The notes under the pieces: model-generated
The model's database searches: none
Seen by the model: the letters and a program-made list of their open reading frames with translations, nothing else
Told to the model about the DNA's origin: nothing
Shown here: positions 134-22,168 of the stretch, one piece after another
How positions within the stretch are numbered: the stretch's first letter is position 1
Layout: each line of letters starts with the position of its first letter
DNA from: Parvularia atlantis
Taxonomy: Eukaryota; Opisthokonta; Rotosphaerida
DNA length: 22,168 nucleotides
NCBI GenBank assembly: GCA_943704415.1
Contig: CALSCO010002418.1
Location: 1 to 22,168, forward strand
Reading direction: 5' to 3'
Position numbers and translations under genes: made by a program

Positions 134-3100
134 TCAGTTCCCAACGGCCGAGCCGCTGTCACCCGCTGGCGTCGTCCACGCCGAGGGCGACGCGGCCAAC
201 GCGGCCAGGGTGTCGGTGGGCGCACCAGCGCGCGGGCTGAGCGGCAGCGGCGGCACGTTGCGCGTCTCTTCACGATGCTGCGCGCAGGGTCGGTCAGCAC
301 GAGTGCGCCCCGCAACTGCGGCGCGAACCATCGCGCGCGTGTGCGGCCCGCTGATGATCGGGCTGAGCGTCATCGTCATGCCCGTGTCGCCTGCGATCTG
401 GCTGCGCGGCTGCGCGCCGAGCTGCACGCAGCGCTGGCCCAGGCGCCCGACCTCGCCGTAGATCTCGGCGATGCTTGGTTGCTGGCGCGGCCGTCTGAGC
501 GATCGCTCGCCGTGGCCACACGCGCACCCAAGCGCACCGTCACGAGCGTCGGGTGGGAGAGGATCTTGCTCGTGAGCATCTCAAACGTGCCCCGGACCTC
601 CTCCAGCTCGCGCGCGAGATCGAGCGTGAGCCGGGCAGACGTCGTCGGCGTGGTCTGCTTCGGCGGCATCTGGCGGTACGGCCATGAGCTTCGTGCACAC
701 ACCGAGCAGGCGCGCCGCACTGCAAGCACGCGGATGAACTGGCGCATCTCGTCCATGTTGTCGGTCACGAACGCGTTGATCTCGCCCATGAACGCGGCCT
801 CCTTGGCAGACTCGCCCACGATGTTGGCCAGGTTCTGCATGATCTTGGCGATGAGGGTGAGCGCGCGGTTCGTGCGTGTGTCGGCGGGCTCTGCGGCGAA
901 CACGGCGCAAGAGTCAGTCGTGCGCTCAGCAGGCGGCGCCCGTCGCACCCGATATCAACCCGTGCACGGCGGGCGTCATCACCGCGGGGCAAACGAGGCG
1001 CAGGAAGAAGAAGCCGCTGTGCCCGCGCACATCGTACGCGCGTTCGCATTACGCGGTGATGGCGCGCACCTCACGGCCGTAAAGCGAATCTTGGGGTCGG
1101 TTGGGAACTTGAGCGTGACTTGCTCCTGGATGATGCTGAAGAGCGTGCGCATCTCGCTGCGTCGCGAGTGAGCGAAAGCGCCCGCACACACGACGCACAC
1201 GACGTGCACGCACATCGGCACGGCATCCAGCGATGCGTAGATCGCGTCCAGGTACAAGCGCACGTACTGTAGCAGGCGCTTTGTGTTGCGGCGCACATCT
1301 TCGCCTGCGACGCGCGTGTGAGGCATGTGCAACGGTGCACGCCACGCGCACCCTCCTCCAGGCGCGACAGATCGACCTCGCACGACTGCTTGTTGGCAAA
1401 GACGGCCTTGGTCACGTGCGACAGCGCCGCGCGCAGGTAGTCGCCCGCGATCTGCCTCATGAACTGGTCCATCGTCTTGGTCGCGACCGAGTTGCCGCGG
1501 AAGATGACGGCAGGGTCGTCTGCCCACATGCACAAGACATGTCAACACGCGACGAGCGAGTGCACCCGCGCCGGCGCGCGCCCGCACCCGTGCTCTCGAT
1601 CTCGGCGCAGATCAGCTTGGTCAGGTTGCTGATCGCCGCGTTGGACGAAATCCACACGCGCACGAGGTGCCGCGCCACGACGTCGCGATCCGTCACGAGC
1701 ATGTCCAGCAGCGCGCGCACGGCGACCTGGTCCTCCTTGAGCAGCAGCTGCGAACGGTTGGTGCGAGTCAGCCCCTTGCGCGCGGCTGCAGCCGGTCTGT
1801 CGCACCTGCAGGAAAGTGCGGTACTCGCCCAGCGGTAGCACGACCTCGGTCTTCAGCTCGGCCTTAATGCGCAGCGACATCGTCTCGCCACTTGCGGCCT
1901 CGCCCTCGCCGCTGCTGATCATGTTGGACGCCGTCGAGATGGCCGAGTTGATCAGCGCGCCGCTCGCCGACGTCACGGCCGAGATGATCGACGTGGACTC
2001 TTTCTGCTTTGCGGTGCGCTTCAGCGTCTTTGGAGGGTGCGAGGGCGGGCGATGCGCACCGACGATGACGAGCCGAGCGCGGGTGCGAGCGTGAACCACT
2101 CGTTGACCGCGCGCCTCTCGAGCGTGATGCTCGGGATGTCCAGCTCGCCTGGACGCGGCGTCAGCACGTGCTCGCGGCTCGGCGGCGCGCACCAATGTCG
2201 ACCGTGCGCGTGGCCGGGAACGCCGGCTGGCTGACGACGCGGATCGACAGTATCTGGAACGGCTTAATGTCGCTGCGGGGCGCGTCTGAGTGTGTGAGGC
2301 ACACGGCAGACGAGACACGGGCGTGCGCATGCACGCACTCGAGCACGATGCGCTCGTTCCAGAGCGGCGCGAGCGAGTTGGCGCACACGGACGATGTGGC
2401 CTCGTGCCACCGGTCAAGCATGACCTGTTCGCAAACGCGCGCGTTAGGTGCCGCTGCGCGTGGGTTGTGCGCGCGCACGATGCAGTACGGGTTGGCCGTG
2501 CGCCGGATCGGGTCGACCGGCAGCAGGCCACGCGCCTCAACGATGGTGAGCGGGAGCGACATGATCTTGCGGTGCTGCTGCGCGAGCTCTTGTGCTGCCC
2601 GCGGGCGTGAGCAGCCCAGCAATGCGACATCTCGGCGCACGCGCGCGCACCCGGCAGCTCAATCGACGAGCATAGGCGAATCAGCCGCAGCCACTCGAGC
2701 AGGTCGGCGTCCGAGTCGACGGCAAAGTAGATCTTGTTGCTGCCTGCACACGCGGCGATGCGGTTCATGCGCGATGTGCGGCGCCGCTTAGGTGCACGCG
2801 CACCCTGCGACTCAGACAGCTCGAGCAGGAACACGCCCTTGCGGTCAAAGAGCGACTCGTGGATCGGGCGCACGGTGCAGCCCTCCAGCTGGACGACCTC
2901 GGACGGCTTGAGCGACTGTGCGCAGCCCTGTGCGTCAGCGCGCATGCCGAAAGGGACTCGCACGGCGTACGTTCTCCGACTCGAAGCTGTACAGCAGGCG
3001 CGCGGGCGACATGAGCACGAGGAACCGGCTCTTCCACGCGACCGACGACGACGCCATGCCCGTGAGTGCTGGCGACGACGTCAATGCTCCCGCAACACGG

Positions 3101-4548
3101 CAGAGCGCGCAGCCTTGTGCGCACTGGTCCGCTGCACGCGGCCCGCTTTGGTGCTGCCCTGCAGGCTCGACACGGACGCCTTGCTGTAGTGCTCCGCGCC
3201 CGTGTGCTCGTCGATGAAGATGTCGGCGTCGCGGTCGGCGTCGACGTCCTCGAGCGCCTGCGCGGGCGCGGGCAGGATCAGGCGACGCGCACCAGTGGCG
3301 CCTGTGCGCGCGCACCTTAAACACGCGGTCGCAGCCGGCCTTGACGCGCGTGGGCAGGCGCGCCTCCAGCTGCTCGCAGATCGTCAGCGTCTCCTTGACG
3401 TAGCGCACGCGCGTGAACTCGAGCGCCTGGAACCTCTGCGAGCCAGTGGCGGTTAGCTCGGCTGTTGTGCGTGCGCCCCGGCGGGGCGCGCACGTCGAGC
3501 AGCGACGGCATCCAGCGCTTGTAGTACAGCTCCTGGCGGTCATCGCAGATGCTCTTGCACTGCTCCACCTGGATCTCGCTCGCCCGGGCCTTCTCGCGCG
3601 CGACCTGCGCCTTCATCACGGCCTGGGCGACCAGGACTGTTATCGGCCACGCGCGCACGTGCAGCGGGCGCACACCTTGCTCAGATCGGCCGGCGTGTTG
3701 GAGCGCGTGAGCGAGAGCGTCTTCGCTGGCAGCGCGTTGCTCTTGTCCTCGGCCGCCTCGAGCTCCTTGAGCAGCTTGTCGTGGTTGTCCTTGGCCTGTT
3801 TGGGTCGCGCGGATGCAAGCGCGGATGCATCAGTGCTCGCGGACGCCGCGAAGGACGCGCGCCTTCTTGAGCGACGAGAAGGCGTCCTGCAGCTCGTCCT
3901 TGTAGCGCGTGCCCTCGGTCACGAGCTGCGCGGATGGCGCACGCGGTCACGTCGCGGCACGGGGCACATCGACGGCGCGCGCACCGCCTTCTTCAGCGTC
4001 TCGTTTTCCTTGACGAAGCTCTGGAACGACTCGACGAGGAGCTTGCCGATCTGGTTCGTGAGCTGGCGCTGCGGCGACGGAGGGACGAGTGGTGAGCGCG
4101 CGCGTGACGCGGGCGCGGCGCCGCGCACGTGCAGATTGCCGATCTCCTCGACCTCGCCCACGAGCGCCATCCACGCGTCCCACAGCGAGCCCTTGCACGA
4201 CGACGACGACTTGCGCTTGGCCTGCAGCACGCTCTGCGCGAGCTTGACCATGTTTTTGCTGTGCTCACGGTCCGTCAGCGGCACCCGATGTGCGCGCACA
4301 CGCCCCTCCCCGCCGCCGCGGCGCACCTGTACTCGTCCTCGATCTGCTGCCGGCGCTTGAAGAAGCCGTGCATGTCCTTGAGCACGTCCAGCCCGTCGCC
4401 CGCGTGCGCGCAGACCGCGTCAAAGTGATCCTGCCAGTGGTCGCGCACACACGCGCATTGCATCGTGCGATCCGCCGCATCCGCCGTCAGCCGCGCCGGC
4501 ACAGCTCGCGCAGCCCGATCGCACCAGTAGCGTCGCCGAGTACTTCAT
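134..4548 (-). CDS. F-BAR / PH / C2 / RasGAP multidomain Ras GTPase-activating protein
   Basis: Predicted to bind curved membrane and switch off a Ras-type GTPase. The 26-exon model encodes 987 aa. An F-BAR region (about residues 1-300) starts with an FCH-like stretch containing FFKRRQQIEDEY, followed by long helices. A PH domain (about 303-403) has the closing-helix Trp in LLEWLRLIRL. A C2 domain (about 412-500) contains ANPYCI and SLAPLWNE. The RasGAP domain (about 600-850) has VIFRGNSVATK, whose Arg is the expected arginine finger, and FFFLRLVCPAVM. A low-complexity tail ends in TGA. Introns: 278-328 (optional, in frame), 482-537, 670-720, 891-948, 1017-1069, 1157-1213, 1305-1351, 1520-1587, 1748-1805, 2004-2059, 2149-2192, 2273-2326, 2425-2478, 2595-2650, 2744-2803, 2916-2970, 3069-3124, 3258-3315, 3436-3493, 3623-3675, 3796-3862, 3926-3984, 4069-4128, 4259-4326, 4431-4524. 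The 5' end is least certain: the ATG at 4548 needs the 94-base first intron, while an internal ATG near 4459 would keep a Trp before DHFDAV. Acceptors at 2004, 2595 and 2916 have near-equal alternatives. Confidence 0.9.
2273..2326 (-). other. Candidate GC-AG intron in the RasGAP gene (C2 domain)
   Basis: No GT donor here keeps frame into the next exon. A GC donor (GCACGC) with the acceptor CCGCAG gives a smooth C2 strand (ECVHADIKPF). The 54 bases are also open in frame, so retention would add 18 residues; that alternative is not excluded. Confidence 0.6.
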
Positions 4549-4648
4549 CGCGGCAGGCGCCAAGCGGCAGGCGGCAGGCGGCAAGCGGCAGACGGCAAAG
4601 CCGCGCGATGAAGAAGAAAGCGCGACACAACAGTGACACCGCCCATCC
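4549..4648. promoter_or_regulatory. Spacer between TPR gene stop and RasGAP start
   Basis: This 100-bp spacer must hold both the 3' end of the TPR gene and the promoter or 5' UTR of the RasGAP gene, which share a strand. Half of it is the 7-bp tandem repeat at 4552-4600. I see no TATA box and no AATAAA. Confidence 0.55.
4552..4600. repeat. 7-bp tandem repeat, seven units (GGCARRC)
   Basis: Seven consecutive heptamers match GGCAGGC, GCCAAGC, GGCAGGC, GGCAGGC, GGCAAGC, GGCAGAC and GGCAAAG. The array ends three bases short of the RasGAP ATG at 4548, so it sits in that gene's 5' UTR or core promoter. On the coding strand it is a pyrimidine-rich GCYTGCC array. It is either a neutral minisatellite or clustered binding sites. 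Confidence 0.85.
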
Positions 4649-5820
4649 TCACTGCGGTGCGTCACTCTGCTTCGCTGCCGCAGCTCCGGCCTCGCGCTCG
4701 AGTTGGTCGAGCTGAGCAAGGTTCGCAGCGATCTGCTGCACGGCCGAGTGCTCCGGGGGGAGCAGCCGGTCGCGGATCTCCTTGGCCTTGCGCACGAGCG
4801 GCCGCGCCATCGCAAACTGCCCGCGGCGCATGTACACGAAGCCAAGATTGTTGAGCGCGGTCGAGACTGAAAACGCGCGCATGAGATGCAGTGGAGGCCG
4901 GTATGGGCGGCGCACCGGGCACGTTGTTGTCGCCAAAGATCTCCATCAGCCGCGTGAGCGCGTGCCAGCAGTGCCACTCGGCCTCGGCCAGCTTGTCGGC
5001 CTCGATCTGCATCGCCGCGATCGACGAGCTGCTCGCCAGGAACGCCTGCGTCATTTCCTCGACCTGCTCGTCCGGCACGGTCTCGAGCTGCTTGGCGTAG
5101 CACGTGTTGTTCTCGGCCAGCAGCGCAATCGCCCGCGGGTGGTTCTCGGCGTGTGCGCGCAGGGCCATGGCCAGGTTGAGCGCGGCCGTCAGCGTCGAGC
5201 GGTGCTCGCGGCCGACCGCGACCTGGTACGTGTCGAACGCCTGCTGGTACATGAGCACGGCGCGGTCGACATTGCCCTGACGCTGGCGATGGCGCGACGG
5301 ATCAGCAGACGTGCAGAAGAAGCACACGCAACACGCGCACCCGCCACACGTAGCCCAGATTGTTGAGCGCGCTTGCGTACGCCGGGTGCGCCTTGCCAAA
5401 GTGCGCCTCGATCACCGCCAGCGCCTCCTCGCCCAGCTTGAGCGCCTCGCCCCACTGCGCCTTGTCGATGGCCGCGCCCATCTCGTTGTTGAGACCCTGC
5501 ACGCGCGCCACGAGCTCGGCGTCCTTCGGGTCGATCGGCTCGGCGTGCTGCTCGTGCGCGCCCGCGTCGCCGTGCGCATGGCTGTGCTCGTGGCCGTGGC
5601 ACGGCTGGCCGTCGGCGTGGCTGTGGCCGTGCTCGTTGTTGTCGCCGGGCCTCGTCGTGAAGAAACGCGCGACCAGCCGCGGCACGATCGCAGCGGCAGC
5701 GGGCAGCACCAACCGCGGGCGCACGGCACGCAGCACGGGCGCAGAGGCGCGATGCAGCGCGCGGCGAACGGTGAACGACAGCATTGGCCAGAGAAAGCGA
5801 AATGCGCGGGACCCGATCAT
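4649..5820 (-). CDS. TPR-repeat protein with mitochondrial-type presequence and His-rich segment
   Basis: Three exons encode 354 aa; introns are 4867-4915 and 5283-5340. The first 59 residues have no Asp or Glu and many Arg, ending in LVARFFTTR, which looks like a mitochondrial matrix presequence. Residues 64-92 then hold ten His (HGHSHADG, HGHEHSHAHG), a plausible metal-binding linker. The rest is TPR repeats of kinesin-light-chain style, for example NNLGYVWRRQGN and NNLGFVYMRRGQFAMA. TPRs bind other proteins; the partner cannot be read from sequence. TTC19-like or KLC-related mitochondrial proteins are possible families, neither proven. The ATG at 5820 overlaps the TGA of the upstream monooxygenase gene; an in-frame ATG at 5784 would give 342 aa and a 36-base leader with the presequence largely kept. 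The stop is TGA at 4649-4651. Confidence 0.88.
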
Positions 5821-8130
5821 CACTCAGCCCAGAACGTGCGCACGAGGCCGGTCGCCTTGAGCACGAGCTCGAGCGCGCGGCCGGCGAGCGTGTCGGAGAA
5901 GGCGTCGGGCAGGCGCGCCTGGGCGCCCTTGCCGTCGACGACAAAGTCGCGCAGGCGCGGCGCGAGCGTCGCCCAGCCGTACGACACGGTCGTGTGCGGC
6001 CACGCGGCGAAGATGTGGCCCTCTGTGCGCGACCGTCAGCGGGCGTGTTGGCGCGCACGTGGACGAGCGGCGACGCGCACCGGACGACTTGTACCAGCTC
6101 GTGCACCCGGCAGCCCAGACGGACTTGCTCAGCGCCCGCTGAATGTTGGCGTTGAAGTGCTCAAACACGTCCGTGCGGACCTCGACCGAGCGCAGGTCGG
6201 CATCGAGCGTGAGCCGCACCATCTTGCAGATGTAGTTGACTTGCTGCTCGCATTGCATGTCAGCGGGCGCGGGCGAGCGCGTGCGTATGCGCACCATCTC
6301 GATCGTCAGCAGCGCCGAATTGTGCCCGCTGCCAGTCGACGGGCCGAGGCACATCAGCAGGTTCGGGAAGTGCGGGATCGACATGCCTGGCAGTGCGCAT
6401 CGCGTCAAGCGGTGCTGCCAGCGCGGGCGGCACGAACACATACCGAGGTACGCCTCGGGGCCGCCACGCTGCTCCCAGAACTGGTCAAGCTCGACGCCGC
6501 CGCGGCCGCGCACGGTCATCGGCACCTTGCCCACCTGGAAGCCCTGCGAGCGCGCGTGCTGCGCCGTTAGCCAACGGCGCCCACGCTCACACACACACAG
6601 CGCCGCACGGCGCACCGTCGCAAACACAATCACGTCTGCCGGCACCGTCACGCCCTCGCGCGTCACTAGGCCGCTCTCCGTCGCGCGCGCGATGCCGCCC
6701 GTCTCCAGCCGCACGTTGGGCTTCTCGAGCGTCTGCAGAAAGTCGTCCGAGACGATCACGCGCTTGCAGCCGATCGGGTAGTCGGGCACGAGCTTGCTGC
6801 GCAGCTCCTTGTTCTGCCCGCGCAGCGTCAGCACTGCACAACTGCGCACGCGCACGCACCTTGACGCTCTGCTTGATGTTTTGCCTGGCCAGCATCATCG
6901 CGACGGCGTTGAGCCACGTGTCCTTCTGGAACGCGAAGAAGCGCAGCTCGCACTGCGCGCGCGTCGTCCCGCATGAGCGCGCTCGCCGTCGGCCAGGCAC
7001 AGCGCACCGTCCAGAACAGCAGCATGCGGTACAGGAACATGAGGCCCGGCACGAAGCGGAAGAGCCACTTGGCGATCGCGGTGTAGTTGTAGTTGTCTGC
7101 ACGTGCGCCTGTGCGTGTGAGCAGCACGCGGACGGCGCAGGCACGCACGCACGCCGCGGCATGATCCAGTTGGGCGAGCGTTGCATGATCGTCAACTGCT
7201 TGACGACCGGTTGTATCTGCGGCGCGACCTGAATGCCGCTGCACTGCTGTCAAACGGAGCGTGCACACGCCGCGCCGTCGCGCACCTCGCCGCGTTGCCC
7301 ACGAGCGCCACGTTCTTGCCTGCCAAGTCGATCGTGTGGTCCCACCGCGCCGTATGCACCATGCGGCCCTGGAACTTATCAAAGTCGGCGATCTGCGCCC
7401 GCGCGCGCGCGCCGTTTGCCTCAGCCACCGCCACTCGCTTGCGCAGGCCGACAACGCGCCTCCGGGTAGCGCGGGATGTGCAGGCCGCCGACGCAGCTGA
7501 CCACGAACCGCGCCAGCACCACGCTCGTCTCACGCGTCTCGGTATGCCGCGTCGTCACCTGCCACAGCGACCGGTCCTCGAGCCACTCGACCGCGATTGC
7601 CTGCGCCGTCCGTGGTCAGACCGCCAGCGGCTCGCACAAGGCCACGCCACACGCGCCTCGGTGTTGAACCGGATGCGCTCGCGCACGCGGTACTTGATCG
7701 CCACCCGCTCAAAGTAGCCCAGGATCTCGGGCTGGAGCGAGTAGAACTTGGTCCATTCTGCGCCCGATGCATCAGCGGCGCAGCAGCATCCCGACGGACA
7801 TCCGTGCCGCTGTTGAGCTCGAAGCTGAACGAGTACAGGTGCGACGCGACCTGCCGGCGCCGTCAGCAACCCCGAAGTGCCACCGCGCGCGCCACCGCTA
7901 CGCACGTCGCAGCCGCAGCCCGGGTACTGGTTATCCCACCAAGTACCAGACAGGTTGGCGTTCTTCTCCACCACGACAAAGTCGTCCACGCGCGCGGCCT
8001 CGCGCAGCCGCACCGCGGCGCAGATGCCCGACGGTCTGGCAGGATGATCAGCACGGCGCGCCCGATCTGCACGGACGGCCACGCACCCAGCGCCGACAAC
8101 GACGGCGGTGAGCACGGCCGGCGCTTCCAT
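5820..8130 (-). CDS. Type I Baeyer-Villiger monooxygenase (FAD/NADPH)
   Basis: Flavoprotein predicted to insert oxygen next to a ketone using NADPH and O2. Fourteen exons encode 529 aa, normal for the family. In order: FAD-binding VVVGAGPSGICAA near the N terminus, GTWWDNQYPGCGCDV, ASHLYSFSFEL, then FQGRMVHTARWDH, which fits the FxGxxxHxxxW(P/D) fingerprint separating BVMOs from FMOs. A second Rossmann loop VGNAASGIQVAP follows, with Ala where the middle Gly usually sits. Later come PIGCKRVIVSDDF, DVIVFATGFQ and FPNLLMCLGPSTGSGHNS. The substrate is unknown. Introns: 6023-6080, 6244-6294, 6387-6443, 6544-6615, 6814-6859, 6953-7007, 7097-7152, 7239-7285, 7393-7459, 7601-7656 (or 7601-7650 with a GT donor), 7758-7807, 7851-7905, 8036-8086. 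Those at 7393 and 7758 need GC donors. The start ATG is at 8130-8128; the stop TGA (5822-5820) shares its A with the TPR gene ATG. Confidence 0.94.
7393..7459 (-). other. GC-AG intron in the monooxygenase gene (donor GCGCGT)
   Basis: The upstream exon reads LHIPRYPE and the downstream exon IADFDKFQGRMVHT, and the frame changes between them. Only a donor at GCGCGT directly after the Glu codon joins them in phase, with acceptor GGGCGCAG. The 67 bases cannot be exonic because length and frame do not allow it. Confidence 0.75.
7758..7807 (-). other. GC-AG intron in the monooxygenase gene (donor GCACGG)
   Basis: Splicing at GCACGG joins FELNS to EWTKFYSLQPEI, as the family requires. The nearby GT donor (GTCCGT) breaks the frame. 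The 50-base length is typical here. Confidence 0.7.
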
Positions 8131-8192
8131 TGCGACACGGGCGTCCCGTCGGCGAAATGGTGTCGCACGCACTCGTCACGTGACGCAGAATT
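8131..8192. promoter_or_regulatory. 62-bp divergent promoter between monooxygenase and TELO2, with palindromic CACGTG box
   Basis: Start codons of the two genes lie 62 bp apart on opposite strands, so all basal promoter signals for both must fit here or inside the first exons. A perfect 12-bp palindrome CGTCACGTGACG sits at 8174-8185, eight bases before the TELO2 ATG. TCACGTGA is the core bound by bHLH factors of the Cbf1/USF type in other eukaryotes; use of the site here is inference. No TATA box is visible. Confidence 0.7.
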
Positions 8193-11162
8193 ATGACACC
8201 AGCGATGCCGCAGGCCTTCGCGGCCGCGCTGCGCGAGGTGTGCTTGCCCGCGCTTCGACTCGGCGCGCTGCTCCATGCGGCGCGGCAGGCGATCGAGCGC
8301 GCAGACGGTGATGCGGCCGTGACGGACGCGCTAGCGATGGGCGGTGGGCCGGTGCACGTCGCGATCGCCGAGCTCGTGGCGGCCGTGGACCGGTGCGAGC
8401 GCACGGCCGCGCTGAGCGAAGCCCTGCGGCTGCTGCGCGTCGTGCTGAGCGGCGTGACGCTGGTGGACGTCGTCGAGGCGATCAGGCGGTGCGGCTGCCA
8501 CGCGTTGACGCGCTGCGGCACGCGCTGAACGCTGGTCGCCGCGATCGCAGACACAGCGCGGGCGACGAGATGGTCGCGGCGACGTGGCGCGACATCGTGC
8601 AGCTGCTCGTGAGCGTGCCCGACCGCGTGGCCAACCGGCTGCAGCAGCAGCAGCCGCGCGCGGACACGTTCTTCGCCCCGCGGTGCGCTCTCTCGCTCGA
8701 CGTGTGCGATTACACTCACACCCTGCGTAGGCCGTTCCTGGCGCGGCTGGCCGGGCAGGCAGTGTCGCTTGATGCGGCGCTCGCGGCTGAGATCGTCGGC
8801 AAGATCTGCGCGCACGGCTACACGGACCTCTGCGCAGCCGCGCTGCTCGCGGCGCGTCAGCGGCACGGCGCGCTCGTCGGGCAGCTGCCGTCGGCGCACC
8901 AGGAGGGGCTGCTCGTCGCCGCGCTGATGCACAACGAGCGGCAAGCAGCGCGCGGGCCGTGGTACAGCAGCACCGTGCAGCTCCTGCACGCGCTCTGGCC
9001 CGACGGTGCGCTTGTACCGAACACCAGCTCACGCTTACAGCGCTGCCGCAGAGCCGCACGACGCCGCGCTCAACCACTGGCTGACGAGCAAGGCGCTCGT
9101 GCGCCGCCAGCGTCACGGCGCGCCGTTCAGCCGGCTCAACGTGCAGGCGCTCGTGCGCTTCGCCGCCGCGCGGTCAACGGCACTGCTGGGCGAGATGCTG
9201 CGGCACACGCTGCGGCTGTGGTCCGACAAGGGCTGGCTGCGCTTCGCCACGGCCGAGGAGCAGGTCACGGTCACCGCGGCGCTGCTGCTCTGCCTGGGCC
9301 ACGCGCCGCCCGACGTAACCGACGCGGGCACGTTCCTGGCCGACTTTATGCGCGCCGTGCAGGGGTACCTGCTGAGCTCGGTGGTGCAAGTGCGGCTGCT
9401 GGGCATGGTGCGCGCACTTGGCACCGTTGCGGCTACGTGCAGTGCCTGACGTGCGACAGGTCACGGCCGAGGTCGTGACGCGGCGTCTGGCGAGCGGTGC
9501 CACGGCGCTTGACTTTGGCATTGAGACGAGCGAGGTCTTCCGCGCGCTCCCGAGCGAGACGCAGCAGCTGTGCGTTTCTGCGTGCCGCGCGCTGCTGCTG
9601 ACGCTGCGGGTGCAGGCTGCGCGGGCTGCGCACGCTGGTGGATGACGACCGCACAGCGTACGAGGTGTCGCTGCACCAGATCGACGTCGATATTACGCCC
9701 GCACCCGCTACAATGCCTGCGCCGGCACCCGATGCGGCACCTGCAACGTCGACGGCGGTGCACGAGGAGGAAGAGGAGGAGGACGACGACGGTCTTGTGC
9801 CGTACCCGATTACGCCGGAGCAGATGTCGACGCGCGCGGGCGTGGCGCTGCCGCCGGTTCAGGAAGCCGTGCCGCCGCTCAAGGCCGTGAAGGTGCGCCG
9901 TGCAGGCCGAAATTGCGCACAGCTGGCTGACCGTGTGCTGTAGGTGCCGGCGTACGTGCGCGACTGCGCGCGAGGGCTGCGTGCCAAGGACGACTTTGCG
10001 CGTGTGGAGGCGAGCCTGCGCGTTGCGGCGCAACTCGTGTGCCAGGCCGGCGCGACCGAGCTGGCCGAGTGCGGTGCAGACCTGGCGGGCGTGCTCGTTC
10101 GGCTCGAGGCAGACTTTGCGTTCGAGCAGTTTGAGCAGTGCCGGCGGGACGCGCTCGTGGCGCTCGTGGCGTGCGCTCCCGCGGTGGTCGTGCCGCACCT
10201 GGCCGCGCAGTGGTTCGAGCGCAACTACACGGTCGTGCAGCGCGCGCTCATGCTCGAGTGCCTCGGGCAGGGCGCGCAGGAGCTCGCCGCGGCGGACACG
10301 GGCGCGGTCGTGCCAGTCGGAGGCGTCGAGGTGCTGGCGCCGCTCGTGCGCCGCAGCGGGACCGCGTCCGGGCTCGACATCGTCAGCGCGCGCATCGCAG
10401 CCAACACGCGGCGGTCGACGCACTCGCTGCGCGCCGTGGCCGAGCACAAGACGCAGCGCGATCGGGCGGCCGCGCGACCGAACCGTCTCGCGCCCGTCGC
10501 CGGCCTGTTCATCTTCCCGTTCCTGCAGCGGCGGCCGGCGTCGGTTTCGCTCGTCATCTCGGCGCACGCGTCGGCCGGGGCTGCACTCGAGAGCGCCTTT
10601 GCGGTCGAGCAGGGCGTACTATTGACGAAGCTGCTGCAGATGGTCGCGATCGTGTTGCACCACATGGGTGCGTGCAGCAGCAACCGCATGCACAGGCAGC
10701 GCTGAAAGACGCGCACAGGGAGCACGCCGCACGTCGCCGCGATCTCGCAGGCCGTGTGGGAGGCGGTGCTCGGCCTGCGCTTCCACGGCAGCGTGGCCGT
10801 GCGGCGCGCGGTGCTGATGGGTGTGTCGGTGCGGCCTGCGTGCCGTCTGCGTGGCTGACGAGTGCAACGTCAGTTCTCGCCGTGTTGGTCGCGTCCGTGC
10901 CGAGCCACGTCCTGCTCGACCGGCACCTGGCCGACATGGTCGAGGCGCGCGAGTGGTGCGACGGTGCGTTGCGTGATCCGATCTGCCTGTCGTTCGCCTT
11001 GTCTGGCTGAGCGTCGCGGGCTGCGCAGACGTTTTCCACAACGAGCCCGATGCCGAGAGCCGCGAGCTGGCAGCGCACGCATCCAACCTGATCGTGGGCG
11101 TGGTGCAGAGCTCGCCACAGCTGCAGGCGCTTGTACAGCGGCAGCAGCAGCAGTCACTTTGA
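8193..11162 (+). CDS. TELO2: TELO2 (Tel2), core subunit of the TTT complex
   Basis: Helical-repeat scaffold that, with TTI1 and TTI2, helps HSP90/R2TP mature PIKK kinases (ATM, ATR, mTOR, DNA-PK family). Ten exons encode 831 aa, almost the human length (837). Family marks in order: WRDIVQLLVSVPDRVANRL, VVQVRLLGMVTAEVV with ALDF shortly after, an acidic run followed by GLVPYPI (compare human DDEFVPYDM), VPAYVRDC (human APAYVRDC), APVAGLFIFPFLQR (human VAGHFFFPLLQR), LRFHGSVAVRRAVL, LADMVEAREW. The acidic segment before VPY resembles the CK2-phosphorylated region that recruits R2TP in other species. Introns: 8489-8550, 8683-8730, 9006-9051, 9408-9459, 9570-9615, 9893-9943, 10668-10718, 10821-10873 (least certain; donor GTGTGT), 10964-11028. 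It ends QRQQQQSL then TGA, 11 bp before the next gene. Confidence 0.95.
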
Positions 11163-11173
11163 CCTTGCCGCTG

Positions 11174-12937: not shown

Positions 12938-12992
12938 AGCAGCAATGTGTATCACGCACATGTCCAAGGGAAGACTCGAGATCTGTGACAGC

Positions 12993-15079
12993 ATGGCATC
13001 ACGCGACGGTCTGTGCGATCGGGCGCCGCGCGGCTCGCTCACTCGGCTCGCGCGGGGCAGTGTGGCTGCTCGACTACGGCGCGGGCAACGTGCGCAGCGT
13101 GGCCAACGCGATCCGCAAGGCCGGCCACACCGTGCGCACCGTCGCCGCGCCGGCCGACCTCGCCGCGGCCGACGTGCTCGTCTTCCCCGGCGTCGGCTCG
13201 TTCGGGAGCTGCGTGGCCAAGCTGCAGCAGCAGGGCTTCTGGGAGCCGCTGCGCGTCTACATTGCGTCGGGGCGCCCGTTGATGGGCGTGTGCCTGGGCA
13301 TGCAGCTGCTCTTCGCGGGCAGCGATGAGTCGCCCGGCGTGGCCGGCCTCGGTGTGATCCCCTCGCACATCACCAAGTGCGCGGATCGCGCGGCACGCCT
13401 CGTCCGCGCGCTGAGCGCGTGCCGCCAGGATCGACAACACGCACGTGTCGGTGCCGCACATCGGCTGGAACGGCGTACACGTGTTGCGCGGGTACGCCGC
13501 CTTCCCGCTGCCTGAGGCGCTCGGTCATTACTACTTTGTGCACTCGTACTGTGCGCTGCCGACGGTGCGCCGGGCCGCGTGCGTTGATGGGTGCCACTGA
13601 CGGTCGTGGGGGCGTGAACAGGAGGCCAACACGGACTGGGTCCTGCTTACGACCGACTACGGGCCGACGCGCTTCGTCAGCGCCGTGCAGCGCGCCAACG
13701 TCTTTGCGACGCAGTTCCATCCGGAGAAGAGCGGCGCGCTGGGCCTCGCGCTGCTCAAGCGCTTCCTAGACACGGCCGGGGCGGTCGCCGCGGTGGTGCC
13801 GAAAGCCCTGCCCGCGCCGCCGGCCGATGCGCGCACGCGTCTGACGAAGCGCGTCATCGCGTGCCTGGACGTGCGCACGAACGACGACGGCGATGTGGTC
13901 GTCACCAAGGGCGACCAGTACAACGTCCGCGAGGTGCGCTTTACGCGCGGCACTTCTACCGCGCTGACCCGGTGATACGCAGGCCGGCGCCGTGCGCAAC
14001 CTCGGCAAGCCCGTCGAGCTCGCGCAGCGCTACTTTGAGGAGGGCGCGGACGAGGTGCGCGGCGCATTTGCGCTGGCCCGTGATGGCTGACACGGCTGCA
14101 GATCACGTTCCTCAACATTACCAGCTTCCGCAGCAGCCCCATGCGCGACGCACCGATGCTCGAGGTGCTCCGGCGCACGTCCGAGCAGGTCTTTGTGCCG
14201 CTGACGATCGGTGGCGGCATCCGCGACGTGACCGACCCGGACGGCACGGTGCGCGGCAGCTTGGCGTCTGCGCGGTGCGGGCGGCTGAAGGGCATCGCGC
14301 AGGTGCACTCGGCGGTCGAGGTCGCGTCCGAGTACTTCCGCTCGGGTGCGGACAAGGTCTCGATCGGCTCGGACGCCGTGTACGCCGCGGAGGAGTGGCT
14401 GGCCAGCGCCGGCAAGAAGACCGGCGCAAGCTGCATTGAGCAGATCGCGCACGTCTACGGTGACGCGCTCGGTGCCGTCCGCCTCGTGCTGACGGCGCGT
14501 TCAGGCTCACAGGCCGTCGTGATCTCGGTCGACCCGAAGCGCGTGTATGTGGTGAGCCGCGACGCGACGCCGCACCACGTGATCGAGACGCCCGACGTGG
14601 GGCCCAACGGCGAGACGCTGTGCTGGTACCAGTGCACGGTCAAGGGCGGGCGCGAGACGCGCGACGTGGATGTGCACCAGCTCGTGCGGGCGTGTGAGGG
14701 TGCGTGATCGCCGTCATTGTTGTTGCGTGCCTGTCTGAGGGCGTGCCGGCAGACCTCGGCGCAGGCGAGATCCTGCTCAACTGCATCGACAAGGACGGCA
14801 CCAACTCGGGCTTTGATCTGGCGCTCGTGCGCGACGTGCGCGCGGCCGTGCGCATCCCCGTGATCGGTGCGATGCGCATCGTTGCGGAGCGACACACAGT
14901 GTACTCACACCCTTTTCGCAGCGTCGAGCGGCGCCGGCCGCGCTGAGCACTTCGGCGAGGTGTTTGAGCAGACGGGCGCCGAGGCCGCGCTCGCCGCGGG
15001 CATCTTTCACCGGCGCGAGGTGCCCATCGCCGCCGTCAAGACGCACCTGCGTGAGCGCGGCATCGACGCACGGACGTGA
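12993..15079 (+). CDS. HIS7: Imidazole glycerol phosphate synthase, HisH-HisF fusion
   Basis: Bifunctional enzyme of histidine biosynthesis: the N-terminal glutaminase makes ammonia, which the C-terminal (beta/alpha)8 cyclase uses to turn PRFAR into IGP and AICAR. Ten exons encode 540 aa (yeast His7 is 552). Glutaminase marks: [25 protein letters not shown], nucleophile Cys in [11 protein letters not shown], His-Glu in QFHPEKSG. Cyclase marks: [10 protein letters not shown] with the catalytic Asp, [64 protein letters not shown]. Introns: 13009-13060, 13377-13428, 13565-13621, 13934-13982, 14055-14101, 14249-14302, 14460-14504, 14700-14752, 14867-14921. Exon 1 is just 16 bases (MASRD plus one base), and joining it to exon 2 gives [15 protein letters not shown], which decides the start. 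The gap to the MFS stop is 55 bp. Confidence 0.97.
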
Positions 15080-15525: not shown

Positions 15526-16957
15526 ATGGCGACGAAACGATCACGTGACGAGGTCGAGCTGGATGACGCGGCGGGCTGGACGGCCCACGACGACCTGCTG
15601 CTGGTGCACGCGGTGCAGCAGACGTGCGACCTGGCCACGGCGCGCCACAGCGTCAAGTTCAGCGCACCGCGCAGCCCGCGCGCAATCGAGCGCCGGTGGA
15701 GCCGGCTGCTGCGCGACGCCGATGCGAGCCGCGACGCTGTCGAGCGCGTGCTTGGCCTCGGCCTGCAGCCCGGCGACCTGCCGAGCGGCAACGTGCCCTG
15801 GAGCGACGTCGAACTGACGGCCGTCGTGGCATCGCCCGTGCGCAAGAAGCCCAAGGGCGCCGCGCCAAAGTACACGGCGGGCGAGGCGCAGGCGATCATG
15901 TCGTCCGCGCCGGTGCGCCCGCGCTGACCGAGTCACGGCCGCGACGCTGACGGCCTGCCCAGGGCGTGTTCCACGCGTCGCGCACGCCCGCGGCCGTCGT
16001 GCAGCTGATGAGCAGGCTGTGGTTCTTCGAGCACCAGGCCGAGCTCTCGCTCGCGACCGACTTTGAGCGCTTTCCGCACAAGCTGCAGGACGTGCTGCGC
16101 CGCGTCAGCCGCCAGGCCGAATTCACGTGCGTGGCCTGGATGCGCCTGTGCGCGGCGCGCTGACGGTGGGCGCGCGGGAAGCTTCCCGCGCGAGGTCATC
16201 CTGCCAGCGCCGCCCGAAAAGCCGCGGCTCAAGGGCCCGCGCCGGTCGGCCGCGTACATCGTCCCGCGCGAGCCCGAGCCAGACGTGCAGGTCGACGTCG
16301 GCGTGGAGGACTTTGACGCGAGCGCGGCAGCCGGCGCAGCAGCAGCGGTGGAGACGAGCGAGGACGCGCCGCAACAGGAGGCCGTCGGCGAGCAGGGCAG
16401 CAAGGAGGCGCTGCGCAAGCGGCACTTTTTCCAGCGGCGGCGGCACATGCTCCAGCTCGAGAGCGAGATCGCGGCCGACCGGTACTTTGAGTTTGGCAAG
16501 CGCACACTGGCCGTGCTGCGGGGCGAGTTTGCGCGGTTCGAGATCCGGTCGAAGGAGGTGCCGTGCGCGGCGCGCGTGCAGGCGTGGACGCTGCTCACCG
16601 GCGTCTCGCAGGCGCTCATCGGGCACAAAACCGACACGAACAACGTCGACATCGACCTGGCTAAGGCCGGCGCGGTCAGCCGCGTGTCGCGGCGCCAGGC
16701 GATCCTGCGCCTCGAGCCCGACTGCTGCTTCCACGTGCTCAACATCGGCGCGCGCCCGCTGTACGTCTGCGGCGAGCCGGTGATGCCCGCGACCAACTGC
16801 ACGCTGCGCGACGGCGACCTGCTCGAGGTGCGCGTTGTGCGCCGTCCTTGCGCAGCGCAGCGGCTGCTGACGTGCGCGCCAGATCGGCGGCCTGCCGTTC
16901 ATCTTCAACAGCAACAACTGGCTGCTCAACAAGGCGCGCAAGCACTGCCTTGAGTGA
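15526..16957 (+). CDS. MCRS1: MCRS1-like (microspherule protein 1) FHA-domain protein
   Basis: Nuclear chromatin-complex subunit by homology: MCRS1 belongs to INO80 and NSL complexes in animals. Four exons encode 430 aa (human 462). The N-terminal MCRS_N domain shows WTAHDDLLLVHAVQQTCDLA, VKFSAP and IERRWSRLLRD. A KRSRDE-type basic start suggests nuclear import. After a charged linker and a helix around KRHFFQRRRHMLQLESEIAA comes the FHA domain with VSRRQAIL, PLYVCGEPV, NCTLRDGDLLEIGGLPFIF. The Gln in SRRQ, where most FHA domains have His, matches MCRS1 proteins (SRKQ) and supports the assignment. Introns: 15913-15962, 16148-16181 (34 bases), 16828-16882. A TCACGTGA box lies at 15540-15547, inside the first codons. 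Confidence 0.93.
16148..16181 (+). other. 34-base spliceosomal intron in the MCRS1-like gene
   Basis: It starts GTGCGCGG, ends GGGAAG and contains CTGAC. Removing it joins AWMRL to FPREVILPAP in frame; reading through meets a stop. It is among the shortest introns here. Confidence 0.75.
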
Positions 16958-17013
16958 GTTGTTTTTGTGCACGGGGGCTTCAGGGGTATCGCCACGCAAT
17001 CAAGATCTTGCTC

Positions 17014-17610
17014 ATGGCTGCGGAGGACGGCGCGAACGCACACGGCGCGACCGGCAGCGGTGCGGCGAGCACGACGGGCAGCAGCGCATCGGGCGTGACG
17101 CGCACGTGGTCGTGGTACAGCGACAACCTGGGCGAGCCGGCGAACCGGGTCCTGCCGGAGCTGGCGCTGTTCATCGGCGGGGCGGATGCGCGCGACCGGT
17201 CGTGGCTGGCGCAGACGGGCATCACGCACATCGTCGACGCGAGCAACATGCGCCTGACGATGTGCGAGCCGCTGCCGAAGCACGTGCGCGTGCTGCGCGT
17301 GCCCGTGGACGACGCGCCCGCGTGCCGGATCGACCAGCACTTTGGGCAGTCGAACCACTTCATCGACGAGGCGATCGAGGGCGGCGGGCGCGTGCTCGTG
17401 CACTGCATGGCCGGCGTCAGCCGCTCGGCCTCGCTCGTCATCGCGTTCCTGATCTGGAAGCGCAACTGGACGATGCGCGCGGCCCTGGCCTCGCTCGAGC
17501 GCGCGCGGCCCATCGTCAACCCCAACGCGGGCTTCCGCAAGCAGCTGCTCGAGTACGAGGCCAAGGTGCACGAGGTGACCAAGGGGCTCAGGGCGCCGCT
17601 GCCGCCGTGA
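17014..17610 (+). CDS. Dual-specificity protein phosphatase (DUSP)
   Basis: Cysteine phosphatase that removes phosphate from Tyr and Ser/Thr of protein substrates such as MAP kinases; the substrate is not readable. One exon, 198 aa. An Ala/Gly/Ser/Thr-rich N-terminal tail of about 30 residues precedes the catalytic domain (about 45-190). The P-loop HCMAGVSRSASLV fits HCx5R, with Cys131 as nucleophile and Arg137 binding phosphate. An Asp in VPVDDAPACRID is the likely general acid. Also typical are LFIGGADARD, ITHIVDAS, FIDEAI and RPIVNPNAGFRKQLLEYE. It is the only gene here without introns. The ATG at 17014 is the first suitable one; it begins 56 bp after the MCRS1-like stop. No extra targeting or docking domain is visible. 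Confidence 0.94.
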   Translation: MAAEDGANAHGATGSGAASTTGSSASGVTRTWSWYSDNLGEPANRVLPELALFIGGADARDRSWLAQTGITHIVDASNMRLTMCEPLPKHVRVLRVPVDDAPACRIDQHFGQSNHFIDEAIEGGGRVLVHCMAGVSRSASLVIAFLIWKRNWTMRAALASLERARPIVNPNAGFRKQLLEYEAKVHEVTKGLRAPLPP

Positions 17611-17868
17611 GCCGCTGGACTGCGGGGCCGCTGCTTGTGCAGACGAGGCGCGGAACAACTACAACAGCAAGCACGCACATCTCATCCACGCACGGACTCG
17701 CTCGTATCCCTCACGCATTGCTGCGCGCACCCCACCTCCCTCAAGCTCCCTTTGTTACTCTTTCCCCCTCCCGACCACGCAGCGCAGCGACACACGCCCG
17801 CGACGCAGCCGCGACGCAGGGACGAGGTGCGTCGATCGTTGACCACTTGTCGCTGGCCAAACCGGTCG
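17611..17868. promoter_or_regulatory. Upstream region of the membrane-protein gene with pyrimidine-rich block
   Basis: Noncoding 258 bp between the phosphatase stop and the next ATG. A C/T-rich stretch at about 17725-17773 could act as an initiator or promoter element. No TATA box is clear. Confidence 0.4.
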
Positions 17869-17884
17869 ATGGCGCTGCCGCCGC

Positions 17885-17934
<50 letters not shown>

Positions 17935-19692
17935 GCGGGAGGCGCGCGCGCGCTCAATCTCGACTGCGAGCTCGTCGTGCCGCTGGACCCGCTCAGCGCA
18001 GTGGTGCGCCGCGTCACGCGCGCTGCGTTGCGACGCCGCACTGACGCCGAGGGCGCGCAGGGCCTCGCGACGCCGTACCTCCTGCGCGCGCGCAACGCGA
18101 CGCAGGGCCCGTGCCACATGGCCAGCGCGGCGCAGCGCGCGTTCGTCGAGGGCGTCGTGGTCGATGTCGACACGGCGCAGCTGTACGTCTACAACCCGCT
18201 CGTGGTGCGCGCATCCCGCGTCCGGCAACCGGCATCGCCGACACTGCGCAGATCGACGAGGGATCGATGCCGGCCGCCTTCCCGCTCGTCCCCGCGCTGC
18301 CGCGCAACTACGTCGCCGCGCTATTCTTCGGTGCGCGCACGTGACGTGCGACCAAGGCCGCGCGGCGCGGCTGACGGTGTCTGTGCACGGCAGGGTTCAA
18401 CGGGAACTCGCTGCGCCTCGTCGGCACGCCGCTGGACGACGGCTACGACTCGCTGTTTCAGGGCGCGTGCCTGCAGGGCGTGCTGACGGGGTCGATGCCC
18501 GACTACTTTGGGCGCTTCGCGTACTGCAACGCCCTCGCGTTCTTCTCGCACGTGCGATCGCTCATCGACGCCGGCCGCCTCGTGGTGCGCGCGCGTCATC
18601 GCTGCTGCTGCCGCCCGCTGATGCGCGCTCGCCCTCGCACAGGTGCCGCCGCTCGGCCGCGAGACTGACAACCTCTACTGCCCGTCCATCCGCGACTTCT
18701 CGGTCGTCGACGCGACGCAGAGCGACGGCGTCGTGACAAGCTACCTGCTGACGCAGACCGGGCGGGTGGCGCAGAACACGGTCACGAACCAGGTCGAGCT
18801 GATCCGGGCGGGCGAGAGCTGGGTGATCATCACGGGCGCGGGCGACCAGGGCCTGCTCGTCAACTACATCGCACCCGCGCTCGGCTGCCGCTCGTGGCTC
18901 GTGCCCGACCTGGCCAACCACGGCAACCTCACGGCCGCGCTTGCGCTCAACGAGATCCAGGCCGCGTATTTCCAAGCCGAGCCGGTGGCGCAGGTGCCCG
19001 GGCTCAACCCGATGGTGCTCACGAACGGCACAATCAACACCAACAAGCTCAGTGCGCTGCGCGCGGGCCTGGCCCAGAGCGTCGTCGCCGACATCTCGCC
19101 ACTGCACGAGGGCGACACGGTCATCTACTGCGAGGCCATGGCCAGCGTCACGACCAACCGCCTGCACACGTCGCAGCGCCTCTACGTCGGTGCGCCCTCG
19201 CCCGAGCCCAACAAGGCCGTCGACCTGTTCTCGTACCTGGCGGCGCGCTTCGTGCAGTCCTACGGTGGGTCCTGTGCGCGGCATGGGCGCGTGCTCACGT
19301 CGCGCCCGCGCACTCGCAGCCGACCTGCAGTGCCAGACACTGCTCAACCGGACCTGCCCGATCGTCATGGTCAACAACAGCCTGGGCGTGTACACAAGCG
19401 CGACGATCCAAGTGGTGCGCGGACACTCGCGGGTGTGTGGCGTACGTTGCTAAGCACGCGCGCGCGCCAGCTCAACATAATTGAGGCGGGCGCGTTCCTC
19501 GGCGAACCCTACTGCGTCACAGTCGGGACGGCGTCGGCGCTGGGCGTGACGCTGCTGATGCTGACGCTGCTCGACCTCGTCTTCTTGCTCATCTGGTGCT
19601 TTGGCGGCAACGACGCCCTGCCCGTGCAGTCGTACCACGAGGCGCGCAAGAAGGAGAAGGAGCTCGAGCTGACCCAAGTCGGGAGCGCGTAG
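17869..19692 (+). CDS. Type I membrane protein of unknown family, poly-Leu signal peptide
   Basis: I do not recognise a characterised family. Six exons encode 514 aa. The N terminus is MALPPP followed by 15 Leu and then AAGGARA, a clear signal peptide. A luminal or extracellular domain of about 430 residues has sparse Cys and N-glycosylation sites (NAT, NLT, NGT, NRT, NNS). Readable blocks include ETDNLYCPSIRDFSVVDAT, GAGDQGLLVNYIAPALGC and TAALALNEIQAAYF. A single transmembrane segment (GVTLLMLTLLDLVFLLIWCF) and a short charged tail ending LELTQVGSA follow. Introns: 18205-18251, 18331-18393, 18585-18642, 19265-19319, 19415-19470. From memory only, the central block reminds me of uncharacterised secreted proteins in early-branching fungi; unverified. 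It is the only gene here ending in TAG. It converges on the subtilase gene, 170 bp away. Confidence 0.87.
17887..17931 (+). repeat. (CTG)15 trinucleotide repeat encoding poly-Leu
   Basis: Fifteen uninterrupted CTG codons form the hydrophobic core of the signal peptide of the membrane-protein gene. Perfect codon identity indicates a young or actively slipping microsatellite. Confidence 0.97.
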
Positions 19693-19862
19693 GCATTCTT
19701 CTTCCTGCCAGTGTGTGATGTTGCTTTTGACCAGGCTAACGAACGAGCAGGGCGATGAGGGGGCAGCAAGCGAACAATCGACAAAAGCAAACAGAGGACG
19801 CCACATAAGAGGCTCAATACGCTGGCGGCGGCCCTTGCGTCCAGTAGCCCTGCGCGTGCGCA
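19693..19862. other. Convergent 3' region between membrane-protein and subtilase genes
   Basis: This 170-bp tail-to-tail spacer is visibly richer in A and T than the genes around it. Both 3' UTRs and poly(A) sites must lie here or overlap. I see no exact AATAAA on either strand. Confidence 0.5.
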
Positions 19863-22168
19863 TCAGCCGCACGACACACCAAAACGGCGCAGACGAACCT
19901 CCTGCTGCTGCTGCTGCTGCGAGGGCGGCGGCGGCGAGCTCGGGTCCGGCGCGACGCGGTTGTACGCGTACGGGTCGCCCGGGTAGTGGCCGCCGCTGAC
20001 CGGCAGCAGCGCCGTGTTCTCGTTCACGACCTCGGCAAGCGAGCTGCTGATGACCAAGGTCGTGTTCGAGCCGGCTGGGTGCTTGCGGCACGAGCGCAGG
20101 ATGGCCACGGTTGACGCCACAAAGCCGATGAAAAACATGAAGATCATCGCGACGTTGTTGAGCTTCCCGCGCAGGTAGACCTCGCAGCTGGTGCCCGAGT
20201 AGCCCGCGAAGCACTCGCACGCAGCGCCCGTCGTGCTGTTGTTGCCGCTGAGCGAGACGCACTCGCCGCTGCTGCTGCACGTCGTGTCGGCCGAGCAGGC
20301 CAGCGGCGCCTGGACGAGCACGCGCAGCTCGAGCGTGGGCGTCGTTCCGCTGCGCTGCACGCGCACTCGCAGCGGCGTGCCTGCGATGTATGGCAGCGTT
20401 GTTGGGGCGACGGTGACGGGCGTGCGCTCGCCGGCCTGGCCCGAGCTGCTGGCGGCCGCGGCTTCCCATTGCCCACCGGCGGTCTGCGCCTCGAGCGTGA
20501 CGGTGAGAGTGTACTTCGCCGTGCTGCCGGCAAAGTTGCGCGCGTAGACCTGCGACAACAAGCTGAGTGGCCTGAACAACGCGAGCGCCCTGCAGCGGCG
20601 ACGCACCCACACGCCGACGTCGCCCTCCTTCTGTAGCTCGAAAGGCACAGTGGTTGCCAACGTCTGCCCTGACGCGAGCGTGCCAAGCTGCGTCTCGCAG
20701 CGCCCAACGCACGGCGTCGCCTGGATGAGCGAGTAGGCGACGGGCGAGCCCTCCGGGAAGAGCAGGTTGTTCGGGTCGTTCAAGCGCTGCCCGCGCGAGA
20801 AAAGACAGTTTGAGTTTGGCATCCGCGCAAGGGCGACCACGCGACGCACGCACGCACCTCCTCCTTGCTCTGCGTCTGCAGCAGCGACACGATCTCGTCG
20901 AACGACAGCCACGGGTTCTGCTCAAACAGCATCGCGACAATGCCGCCGACGTGCGGGGCGGCCATGCTCGTCCCGCTGAGCGCACACGGGGTAAGCACGC
21001 GCGCGCTTGTGTGCGGCACGCACCTTAGCAGGGCCACGTCGGTCGGCGAGCGGTAGTACGCGCTGCGTACGATATCGCCGGGTGCCCACACGCGCACGCA
21101 CTCGCTAGGCCACGCACGTAGCTGTGGTCAGTACACGTAGCGAAGGGTGTCGTGGCCGGACGCACCCGTAGTTGCTCGAGGGCGACGCCTCGCCGCGCTC
21201 GTTGTGGTTGCCGACGGTGATGGCGACGAGCGAGCGCGCGGGCGAGAACAGGCACGCCGACAAGGCGTCGTTGCCGGCGGCGACGACCGAGTAGAACCCG
21301 GCATTGTAGGCGTCACGGATAGTCGTGTCGAGCGAGAGCGTCGAGTTGCCGCCGAGCGAGAGCACAATCACGGCCGGGAGCTGCCCGTTGGAGACGACGT
21401 AGCAGATGCCCTGGATCACGACCGAGTTGTAGCCCGAGCCGTACTCGTTGAGCACCTGGGCGCGATCGTGCGTGCCCCAGTGTGAGCAGCCCGTGCACAA
21501 GGAGGGCCACGCACGAGGCGCACCTGCACGCCCAGCAGGCGCACGTCCTTGGCGACGCCGTACATGCGGCCGCCGACGATGCCGGCGACGTGGGTGCCGT
21601 GACCGTTGCAGTCGTCGCACGCGCTGCCCGTGAACGAGCGGAAGATGCTCGCGCGGCCCTCAAACTCGACGTGGTCGACGCGGATGCCCGAGTCGACCAC
21701 ATACACGTTGACGCCGCGCCCCGTGTAGTTGTAGTAGTAGCGGTCGTCCATCAGCCCCAACCGCGTCTTGGATAGCGCGTCCAGCGCCCACGACTCGCGC
21801 CGCACGTCTTGGATGTGCGTCGTCGCCGCGCGCAGCTCCGGGTCGGCCTCGACGTAGGCGACCTGACGCCATCCCCGTGTGAGTCCCACGCGGACATCAC
21901 GTCACGTCTTGGCGGACGCACCACGTCGTCCAGCGCGGCCAGCGCGTCGACGCAGGCCTCGTCCGCGCACGTCGCGACGACGTACTGCGTCACGCCGGTG
22001 CACGCGAAGGCGCTGCGCACGGCCGCGCCGCGGACGCCGCTGATACGCGCGCGCGCCGCAGTGACGTCGGCCACGTCGTCGCGCAGCCGCACGAGGTAGC
22101 GCCCCTCGGGCGACCTGTCGTGTGCGCACGCGGCCACTCAGCGCACGCAGCGGACGTCGTGGGGGGGG
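19863..22168 (-). CDS. Membrane-anchored subtilisin-like serine protease (S8A, proteinase-K type) with EGF-like domain; 5' partial
   Basis: Secretory-pathway serine endoprotease. About 636 residues are visible; the signal peptide lies beyond the window. An I9 inhibitory propeptide begins [12 protein letters not shown]. The catalytic triad is Asp in [14 protein letters not shown] (21692-21694), His in [13 protein letters not shown] (21590-21592) and Ser in [12 protein letters not shown] (20966-20968), with oxyanion Asn in VVAAGND. After a beta-rich C-terminal domain comes an EGF-like module ([11 protein letters not shown], then [13 protein letters not shown]), a transmembrane helix ([16 protein letters not shown]) and a cytosolic tail with PPPP and poly-Gln. 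Introns: 20550-20606, 20787-20857, 20976-21023, 21105-21165, 21456-21523, 21863-21921, 22115-22146 (32 bases, inferred). The GTSMA Ser motif is completed across the intron at 20976. A plain secreted proteinase K has neither the EGF module nor the anchor. Confidence 0.93.
22160..22168. other. G-run at window end
   Basis: The window stops in eight or nine consecutive G inside the 5' part of the subtilase gene. This may be a real homopolymer or a sequencing or assembly edge artefact, so the partial first codons there should not be trusted. Confidence 0.6.

Follow-up and report, generated by a model that had tools for sequence, protein, structure and literature searches.

GTGCG-dominated 5' splice sites and a canonical U1 small nuclear RNA in an intron-dense genome

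The stretch of DNA analysed here, hereafter the window, spans contig CALSCO010002418.1 from end to end (22,168 nucleotides; C585 in an assembly of 16.25 Mb in 616 contigs), and our subject is the 5' splice site (donor) of the introns that interrupt its genes, which most often reads GTGCG. Ten genes were modelled in the window. On the minus strand lie a predicted gene with 25 introns (134..4548), for which F-BAR (FCH), PH, C2 and RasGAP domains were found by Pfam in the first 849 residues, a predicted gene with two introns that is TPR-like by eye only (4649..5784), a predicted flavin monooxygenase of the Baeyer-Villiger type recognised by its match in the PDB (13 introns, 5820..8130), and a predicted subtilisin-like protease with 10 introns (19814..22168), which continues past the contig end and whose first 355 residues match PDB 2b6n (E 2.2e-53). 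The plus strand carries a predicted gene of no assigned identity with 12 introns (8205..11162), a predicted MFS transporter (PF07690; nine introns, 11174..12937), a predicted fused HisH-HisF protein (HIS7; 12960..15079; PDB 1jvn, 601 bits), in which eight of the nine introns fall within the alignment and six are gap-free, a predicted microspherule-type protein with five introns (15526..16957; Pfam: MCRS_N, FHA slightly below cut-off), an intronless predicted dual-specificity phosphatase (Pfam; 17014..17610) and a further predicted gene with six introns and no assigned identity (17869..19692).

All introns described here were modelled from DNA and protein homology. They were called in a sample of 262 kb from four contigs, comprising the window and 240 kb of the same genome (69% GC in the 222 kb counted), with an unsupervised two-strand gene model that started from the codon statistics of long open reading frames and the single rule that introns run from GT to AG. 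Run A used no donor matrix and run B learned one, again for GT-AG introns only; the matrix-free run A was chosen since a matrix admitted after 12 introns could reinforce itself. It returned 848 introns, of which 845 were usable once those near sequence ends had been dropped (median length 55 nucleotides, quartiles 51-59), and retention of 680 of these would disrupt the reading frame. GTGCG accounted for 584 of the 845 donors (69%), compared with 2989 of all 30864 GT sites (9.7%), while GTRAG was found 13 times and GTRAGT twice. The initial annotation had described the donors as overwhelmingly GTGCG, and this description held; a donor logo dominated by GTRAGT, which it had named as the contrary outcome, was not seen. 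The logo of run A showed G at -1 (0.66), G at +3 (0.88), C at +4 (0.81), G at +5 (0.85) and C (0.49) or T (0.30) at +6, with CAG at the acceptor (0.88). The share of GTGCG was similar across the four contigs (lowest 62/105, highest 61/78), and among 12 pairs of boundary dinucleotides tried, GT-AG scored best (-310611) and GT-CG next (-311037), a difference of about 430 log units.

The abundance of GTGCG by itself proves nothing, as the word occurs 2531 times on both strands of 222 kb, with 2309 expected from dinucleotides, or about once per 90 bases per strand. An artefact, by which so frequent a word would be selected by any modelling, could draw on this abundance, on the reliance of run B and of the homology-checked genes on a learned donor matrix, and on a stricter run without intron oligomer composition, which had lower sensitivity and yielded only 256 introns, 131 of them (51%) with GTGCG and 72% with C at +4. 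Pairing of donor, branch and acceptor words in the raw sequence was also tried and was given up in favour of the gene finder; GTGCG was weakly enriched there (14.3% against a background of 8.3%) and rare words scored equally. For the homology check, five predicted proteins from the learned-matrix run were aligned to solved chains (PDB) and their junctions were scored by script. Thirty-eight junctions fell within the alignments and 29 were gap-free, with donors reading GTGCG (23), GTGTG (2), GTGCC (2), GTGAC (1) and GTATG (1); none read GTRAG, and 25 had C at +4. Four of the nine gapped junctions also had GTGCG. Given a GTGCG share of 69% in the matrix-free run, over a base rate of 9.7%, and 23 GTGCG donors among the 29 gap-free junctions of the homology check, an artefact of modelling is scarcely credible. 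A GTGCG-dominated donor consensus is confirmed in this intron-packed genome, where 182 kb of coding sequence holds 1034 introns, or 5.7 per kb.

Within the window, GTGCG was the donor of 61 of 78 introns in run A and of 71 of 90 in run B, whose acceptors were mostly GCAG (53), followed by CCAG (13) and ACAG (12), as had been said of them at the outset; allowing GC donors gave 94 introns, made up of 84 GT-AG (71 with GTGCG) and 10 GC-AG. The earlier count of 83 introns in nine genes is thus replaced by ten genes and a number of introns that depends on the run. A gap-free example of the common type is the intron GAG|GTGCGCG...GCAG of the HisH-HisF gene (14055..14101, plus strand). The exceptions listed by the initial annotation were modelled as it had given them, namely GTGAG at 12714, GTCCG at 11261 and, ending at 6443 on the minus strand, the gap-free monooxygenase intron TCG|GTATGTG (6387..6443). 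Another gap-free exception, ACG|GTGACGC...TCAG (14460..14504, plus strand), lies in the HisH-HisF gene; the model that allows GC donors exchanges it for a GC-AG intron at 14465-14512, a poorer fit by reading. A CTGAC or CTAAC-like branch site, said to be common, was present but less general than that wording implies: CTRAY occurred in 44% of the 845 introns and CTGAC in 293, and the last CTRAY most often lay 11-21 nucleotides before the 3' end.

C at +4 mismatches position 5 of U1 small nuclear RNA (snRNA), so that the weaker pairing predicted by the initial annotation was correct, and it sits opposite the middle A of the U6 ACAGA box. A base at +4 that U1 can pair (A or G) was found in 6% of modelled donors and in 49% of all GT sites; +4 is the only position at which real donors pair less with U1 than random GT sites do. 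A simple account of such a donor would be a change in U1, or in a second U1 gene, that allows pairing with GUGCG; this was one of the options raised at the outset, together with a comparison of the U1 5' end with the donor. When the genome was searched for U1 and 41 of 149 candidates were scored, one gene exceeded the threshold, and its 5' end was canonical (AUACUUACCUG). The other snRNAs were likewise ordinary: U6 has a normal ACAGAGA box (GAUACAGAGAAG) and is single-copy by exact pattern, U2 has a normal GUAGUA, and a U5 gene was found. The pattern ATACNNACCTG stands for U1 5' ends in which positions 5-6 carry other bases. A search with it returned 46 hits against 5 for the reversed control, and 34 of the 46 were ATACGCACCTG, the perfect U1 5' end for GUGCG. 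This over-representation speaks for an altered U1, but none of the 10 hits inspected was U1-like and none matched any family in Rfam with an E value of 1 or less. Variant U1 genes were therefore rejected as the source of the ATACGCACCTG excess: five of the 10 share one repeat and the others differ. Moreover, the donor CAG|GTGCGTAT has ATACGCACCTG as its reverse complement, and this may explain the remaining hits. Taken together, these results make an altered U1 quite improbable. The repeat itself is about 200 nucleotides long and contains ATACGCACCTG near the start (within 300 bases) of five of the 10 contig stretches inspected (L033:121, L034:120, L035:261, L036:183 and L037:58); it is possibly subtelomeric, and not all pattern hits lie near contig ends or point inwards (e.g. 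C181:35694 and C377:3211). The sole U6 gene found carries, by our own delineation, a 48-nucleotide insert in the catalytic AGC triad (AUUA/insert/GCAUGG; L002:1560-1607, equivalent to G000:C142:8879-8926). Its removal with restoration of AGC needs GU-UU or UU-UG ends rather than GT-AG, and it folds as a hairpin that is not significant (z -1.64).

The initial annotation had also proposed that GC pressure moved the consensus. A neutral +4 shifted by GC pressure alone would fit a genome of 69% GC in which +3 has gone from A to G and +6 from T to C, likewise towards G+C. However, the 845 donors of run A had C at +4 in 684 cases and G in 60, whereas the two bases are equally frequent there across all GT sites (37.4% and 36.8%), which rules out simple GC drift, and G is avoided even though it could wobble-pair with Psi5 of U1. 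We therefore regard GC pressure as insufficient alone and this account as improbable.

GC-AG introns, with donors of the form AG|GCRCG, amounted to about a tenth of all introns (107 of 1052) in the 262-kb sample when GC donors were allowed. Their inclusion raised the PDB match of the monooxygenase from 170.8 bits (GT-AG only) to 203.6 bits and closed the gap at two of the three junctions that had one. The refined model of this gene contains three GC-AG introns on the minus strand: GAG|GCGCGTT (7393..7459) and GAG|GCGCGTG (7601..7656), both gap-free, and GCG|GCACGGA (7758..7807), near which an alignment gap persists. In SNRNP27K, too, the alignment to the solved protein runs unbroken across a GC-AG junction. 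Gene finders that are trained on GTRAGT or that bar GC-AG introns will mis-model this genome, and barring GC-AG broke the monooxygenase gene.

These introns offered a comparison that separates +4 from the positions paired with U1. In the first matrix model, GC-AG introns more often than GT-AG introns had A at -2 (69/107 against 321/945) and A at +3 (48/107 against 43/945), and C at +4 stood at 91/107 against 833/945. Because the matrix itself favours C at +4, the comparison was repeated with flat columns at -2, +3 and +4 and also without matrices. Flat columns gave 58/104 against 307/946 for A at -2, 43/104 against 43/946 for A at +3 and 70/104 against 796/946 for C at +4; without matrices, among donors with G at -1 and +5, the corresponding figures were 37/42 against 154/466, 22/42 against 23/466 and 36/42 against 406/466, and A at +4 was found in 2/42 GC-AG and 7/466 GT-AG donors. 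If U1 read +4, GC-AG introns should gain A there too. The gain of A at -2 and +3 with +4 remaining mostly C indicates that U1 pairing is used and that +4 is apparently read elsewhere; the shift at +3 is about ninefold and that at +4 small. Compensation was also seen between -1 and +6, with T at +6 in 46% of donors lacking G at -1 compared with 23% of the others (52% compared with 23% in the model that allows GC). Such compensation bears on the idea that the introns descend from a mobile, introner-like family carrying GTGCG, the donor then reflecting descent and not recognition. Intron length is indeed uniform, and intron-intron matches numbered 555 against 125 in shuffled introns (E<0.01). Yet similarity in the best pairs reaches only about 75-90% over 32-70 nucleotides (e.g. 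about 84% over 45), the shuffle preserved only dinucleotides in a fixed frame, so that the excess may reflect composition, and compensation between -1 and +6 and between -2 and +3 is a sign that recognition is under selection. We consider common descent of the introns unlikely as an account of the donor.

On these results U1 pairing is in use, with +4 mainly under a separate constraint for a pyrimidine, mostly C. The component that reads +4 is a live question, and published work links A at +4 to N6-methyladenosine in U6 and to SNRNP27K. In PMC10581693 the preference at +4 is linked with METTL16, the methyltransferase acting on the U6 A that faces +4, and with Met141 of SNRNP27K. Both factors are present in this genome. 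METTL16 was recognised by PF05971 (181 bits), with the U6 A43 N6-methyltransferase as best PDB match (E 2.5e-48); SNRNP27K was recognised by PF08648, and a Met aligned to residue 141 of 6qw6_X after a 48-nucleotide GC-AG intron had been removed from the query by hand. LUC7 is present as well. METTL16 (C232:9077-10381, minus strand) was modelled without introns although the genome averages 5.7 per kb of coding sequence.

The interpretation we favour, and hold to be probable, is that this is a normal U2-type 5' splice site that has drifted to G(T/C)(G/A)CG, with a canonical U1 and with +4 read by a later, non-U1 step. The canonical U1 still chooses sites by pairing at -2, -1, +1, +2, +3, +5 and +6 with compensation among them, as the statistics above show, and +4, opposite Psi5, retains a pyrimidine, mostly C, although A would pair. 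Published structures and genetics point to docking on the U6 ACAGA box as the most likely step at which +4 is read; there it would face the adenosine methylated by METTL16, with proteins such as SNRNP27K perhaps helping, and strong GC pressure may have tipped the choice between the tolerated pyrimidines towards C. Perhaps the preference at the U6 step has changed. The suggestion of the initial annotation that other factors compensate is supported in part: compensation is seen at the U1-pairing positions (-2, -1/+6 and +3), and the C mostly retained at +4 points to a putative reader other than U1. More tentatively, and with rather less confidence than the favoured interpretation commands, +4C/U (mostly C) might constitute a code read outside U1, in which a canonical U1 gauges -2, -1, +3, +5 and +6 and the U6 ACAGA step demands a pyrimidine instead of A despite METTL16 and Met141 of SNRNP27K. 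If such a code were true, the link of METTL16 and Met141 to A at +4 would have exceptions, and this lineage and the mamiellophycean algae would each have acquired GTGCG on their own.

Several observations weigh against the favoured interpretation. With flat columns, A at +4 was higher in GC-AG than in GT-AG introns (9/104 against 24/946, p 0.003) and C was lower (67% against 84%, p 6e-5), and in the unfiltered matrix-free GC class, in which many calls are noise (n=192), C at +4 fell to 83 (43%) and A at -2 (63/192) showed no excess. Thus +4 is not wholly untouched in GC-AG introns, where its share of C was 67-86% by setting. GTGCG was not avoided in exons (523 seen against 334 expected from synonymous shuffles); the motif is therefore insufficient alone, and further cues must lie in the branch site, length and composition. 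The yeast rule, with METTL16 and Met141 kept, predicts A at +4, contrary to the C observed. U1 variants may be too divergent for Rfam or may be unassembled, and modifications of U1 and U6 are invisible in DNA.

GTGCGT-type donors are already known from Ostreococcus and Micromonas, and a canonical U1 with such donors from Micromonas, so that the consensus is not unprecedented. PMC3879977 gives an AG|GTGCGT donor and an NCTGAC branch for the canonical introns of Micromonas, with a printed branch distance of 43-52 bp (the peak for the last CTRAY here is at 11-21 nucleotides), and PMC3033335 reports a canonical U1 there and GC-AG introns at 22.2% in M. pusilla. The present genome shares with Micromonas the GTGCG core, the canonical U1, GC richness and GC-AG introns, and perhaps, in some of its introns, a CTGAC-type branch, but most mamiellophycean genes have few or no introns according to PMC3879977, compared with 5.7 per kb of coding sequence here. 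Micromonas is, furthermore, a green alga, whereas a search of the 16.25 Mb for chlorophyll a/b-binding proteins (PF00504) gave no candidate; for this reason the organism is probably non-photosynthetic and not a green alga. In Ostreococcus lucimarinus, introns outside chromosome 2 have GTGCGTG and GACTGACG according to PMC2483917, whose authors considered complementary snRNA changes worth exploring and a single ordinary spliceosome likelier. The atypical GTGCG core is alike in the two genomes, as perhaps is the CTGAC branch, but the strong consensus described there belongs to an intron-poor part of the genome and ours to an intron-dense one, in which U1 and U6 could be read directly. The changed snRNAs that were asked about for GTGCG donors in Ostreococcus in 2008 are apparently not needed here. 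GTGCG in this genome is probably convergent with that of mamiellophycean algae. Aureococcus anophagefferens is a photosynthetic alga. It resembles the present genome in its high GC content, many GC-AG introns and canonical U1 5' end, and differs in having 39.6% GC-AG introns, at 69.5% GC, in the figures extracted from PMC3033335, against about 10% here. In Saccharomycotina, switches from A to U at +4 accompany loss of METTL16 and of SNRNP27K or its Met141, with U1 and U6 unchanged, as described in PMC10581693. The unchanged pairing bases of U1 and U6 are common to both cases, but here METTL16, SNRNP27K and Met141 are kept and the base is C instead of U, so that the yeast route was not the one taken. 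The genome is a counter-example to a simple METTL16/Met141 rule, as it combines C at +4 with canonical U1 and U6 pairing bases and both factors. New in this work are the intron-dense, apparently non-photosynthetic setting, the fact that U1, U6, METTL16 and SNRNP27K could all be read directly from a single genome, and the use of GC-AG introns to separate +4 from the U1-paired positions.

Elsewhere in the genome, a thymidylate synthase gene was located (by eye there is no DHFR ahead of it, a point not relied on), and simple repeats of CT and CA open the window itself at the contig start (1-120).

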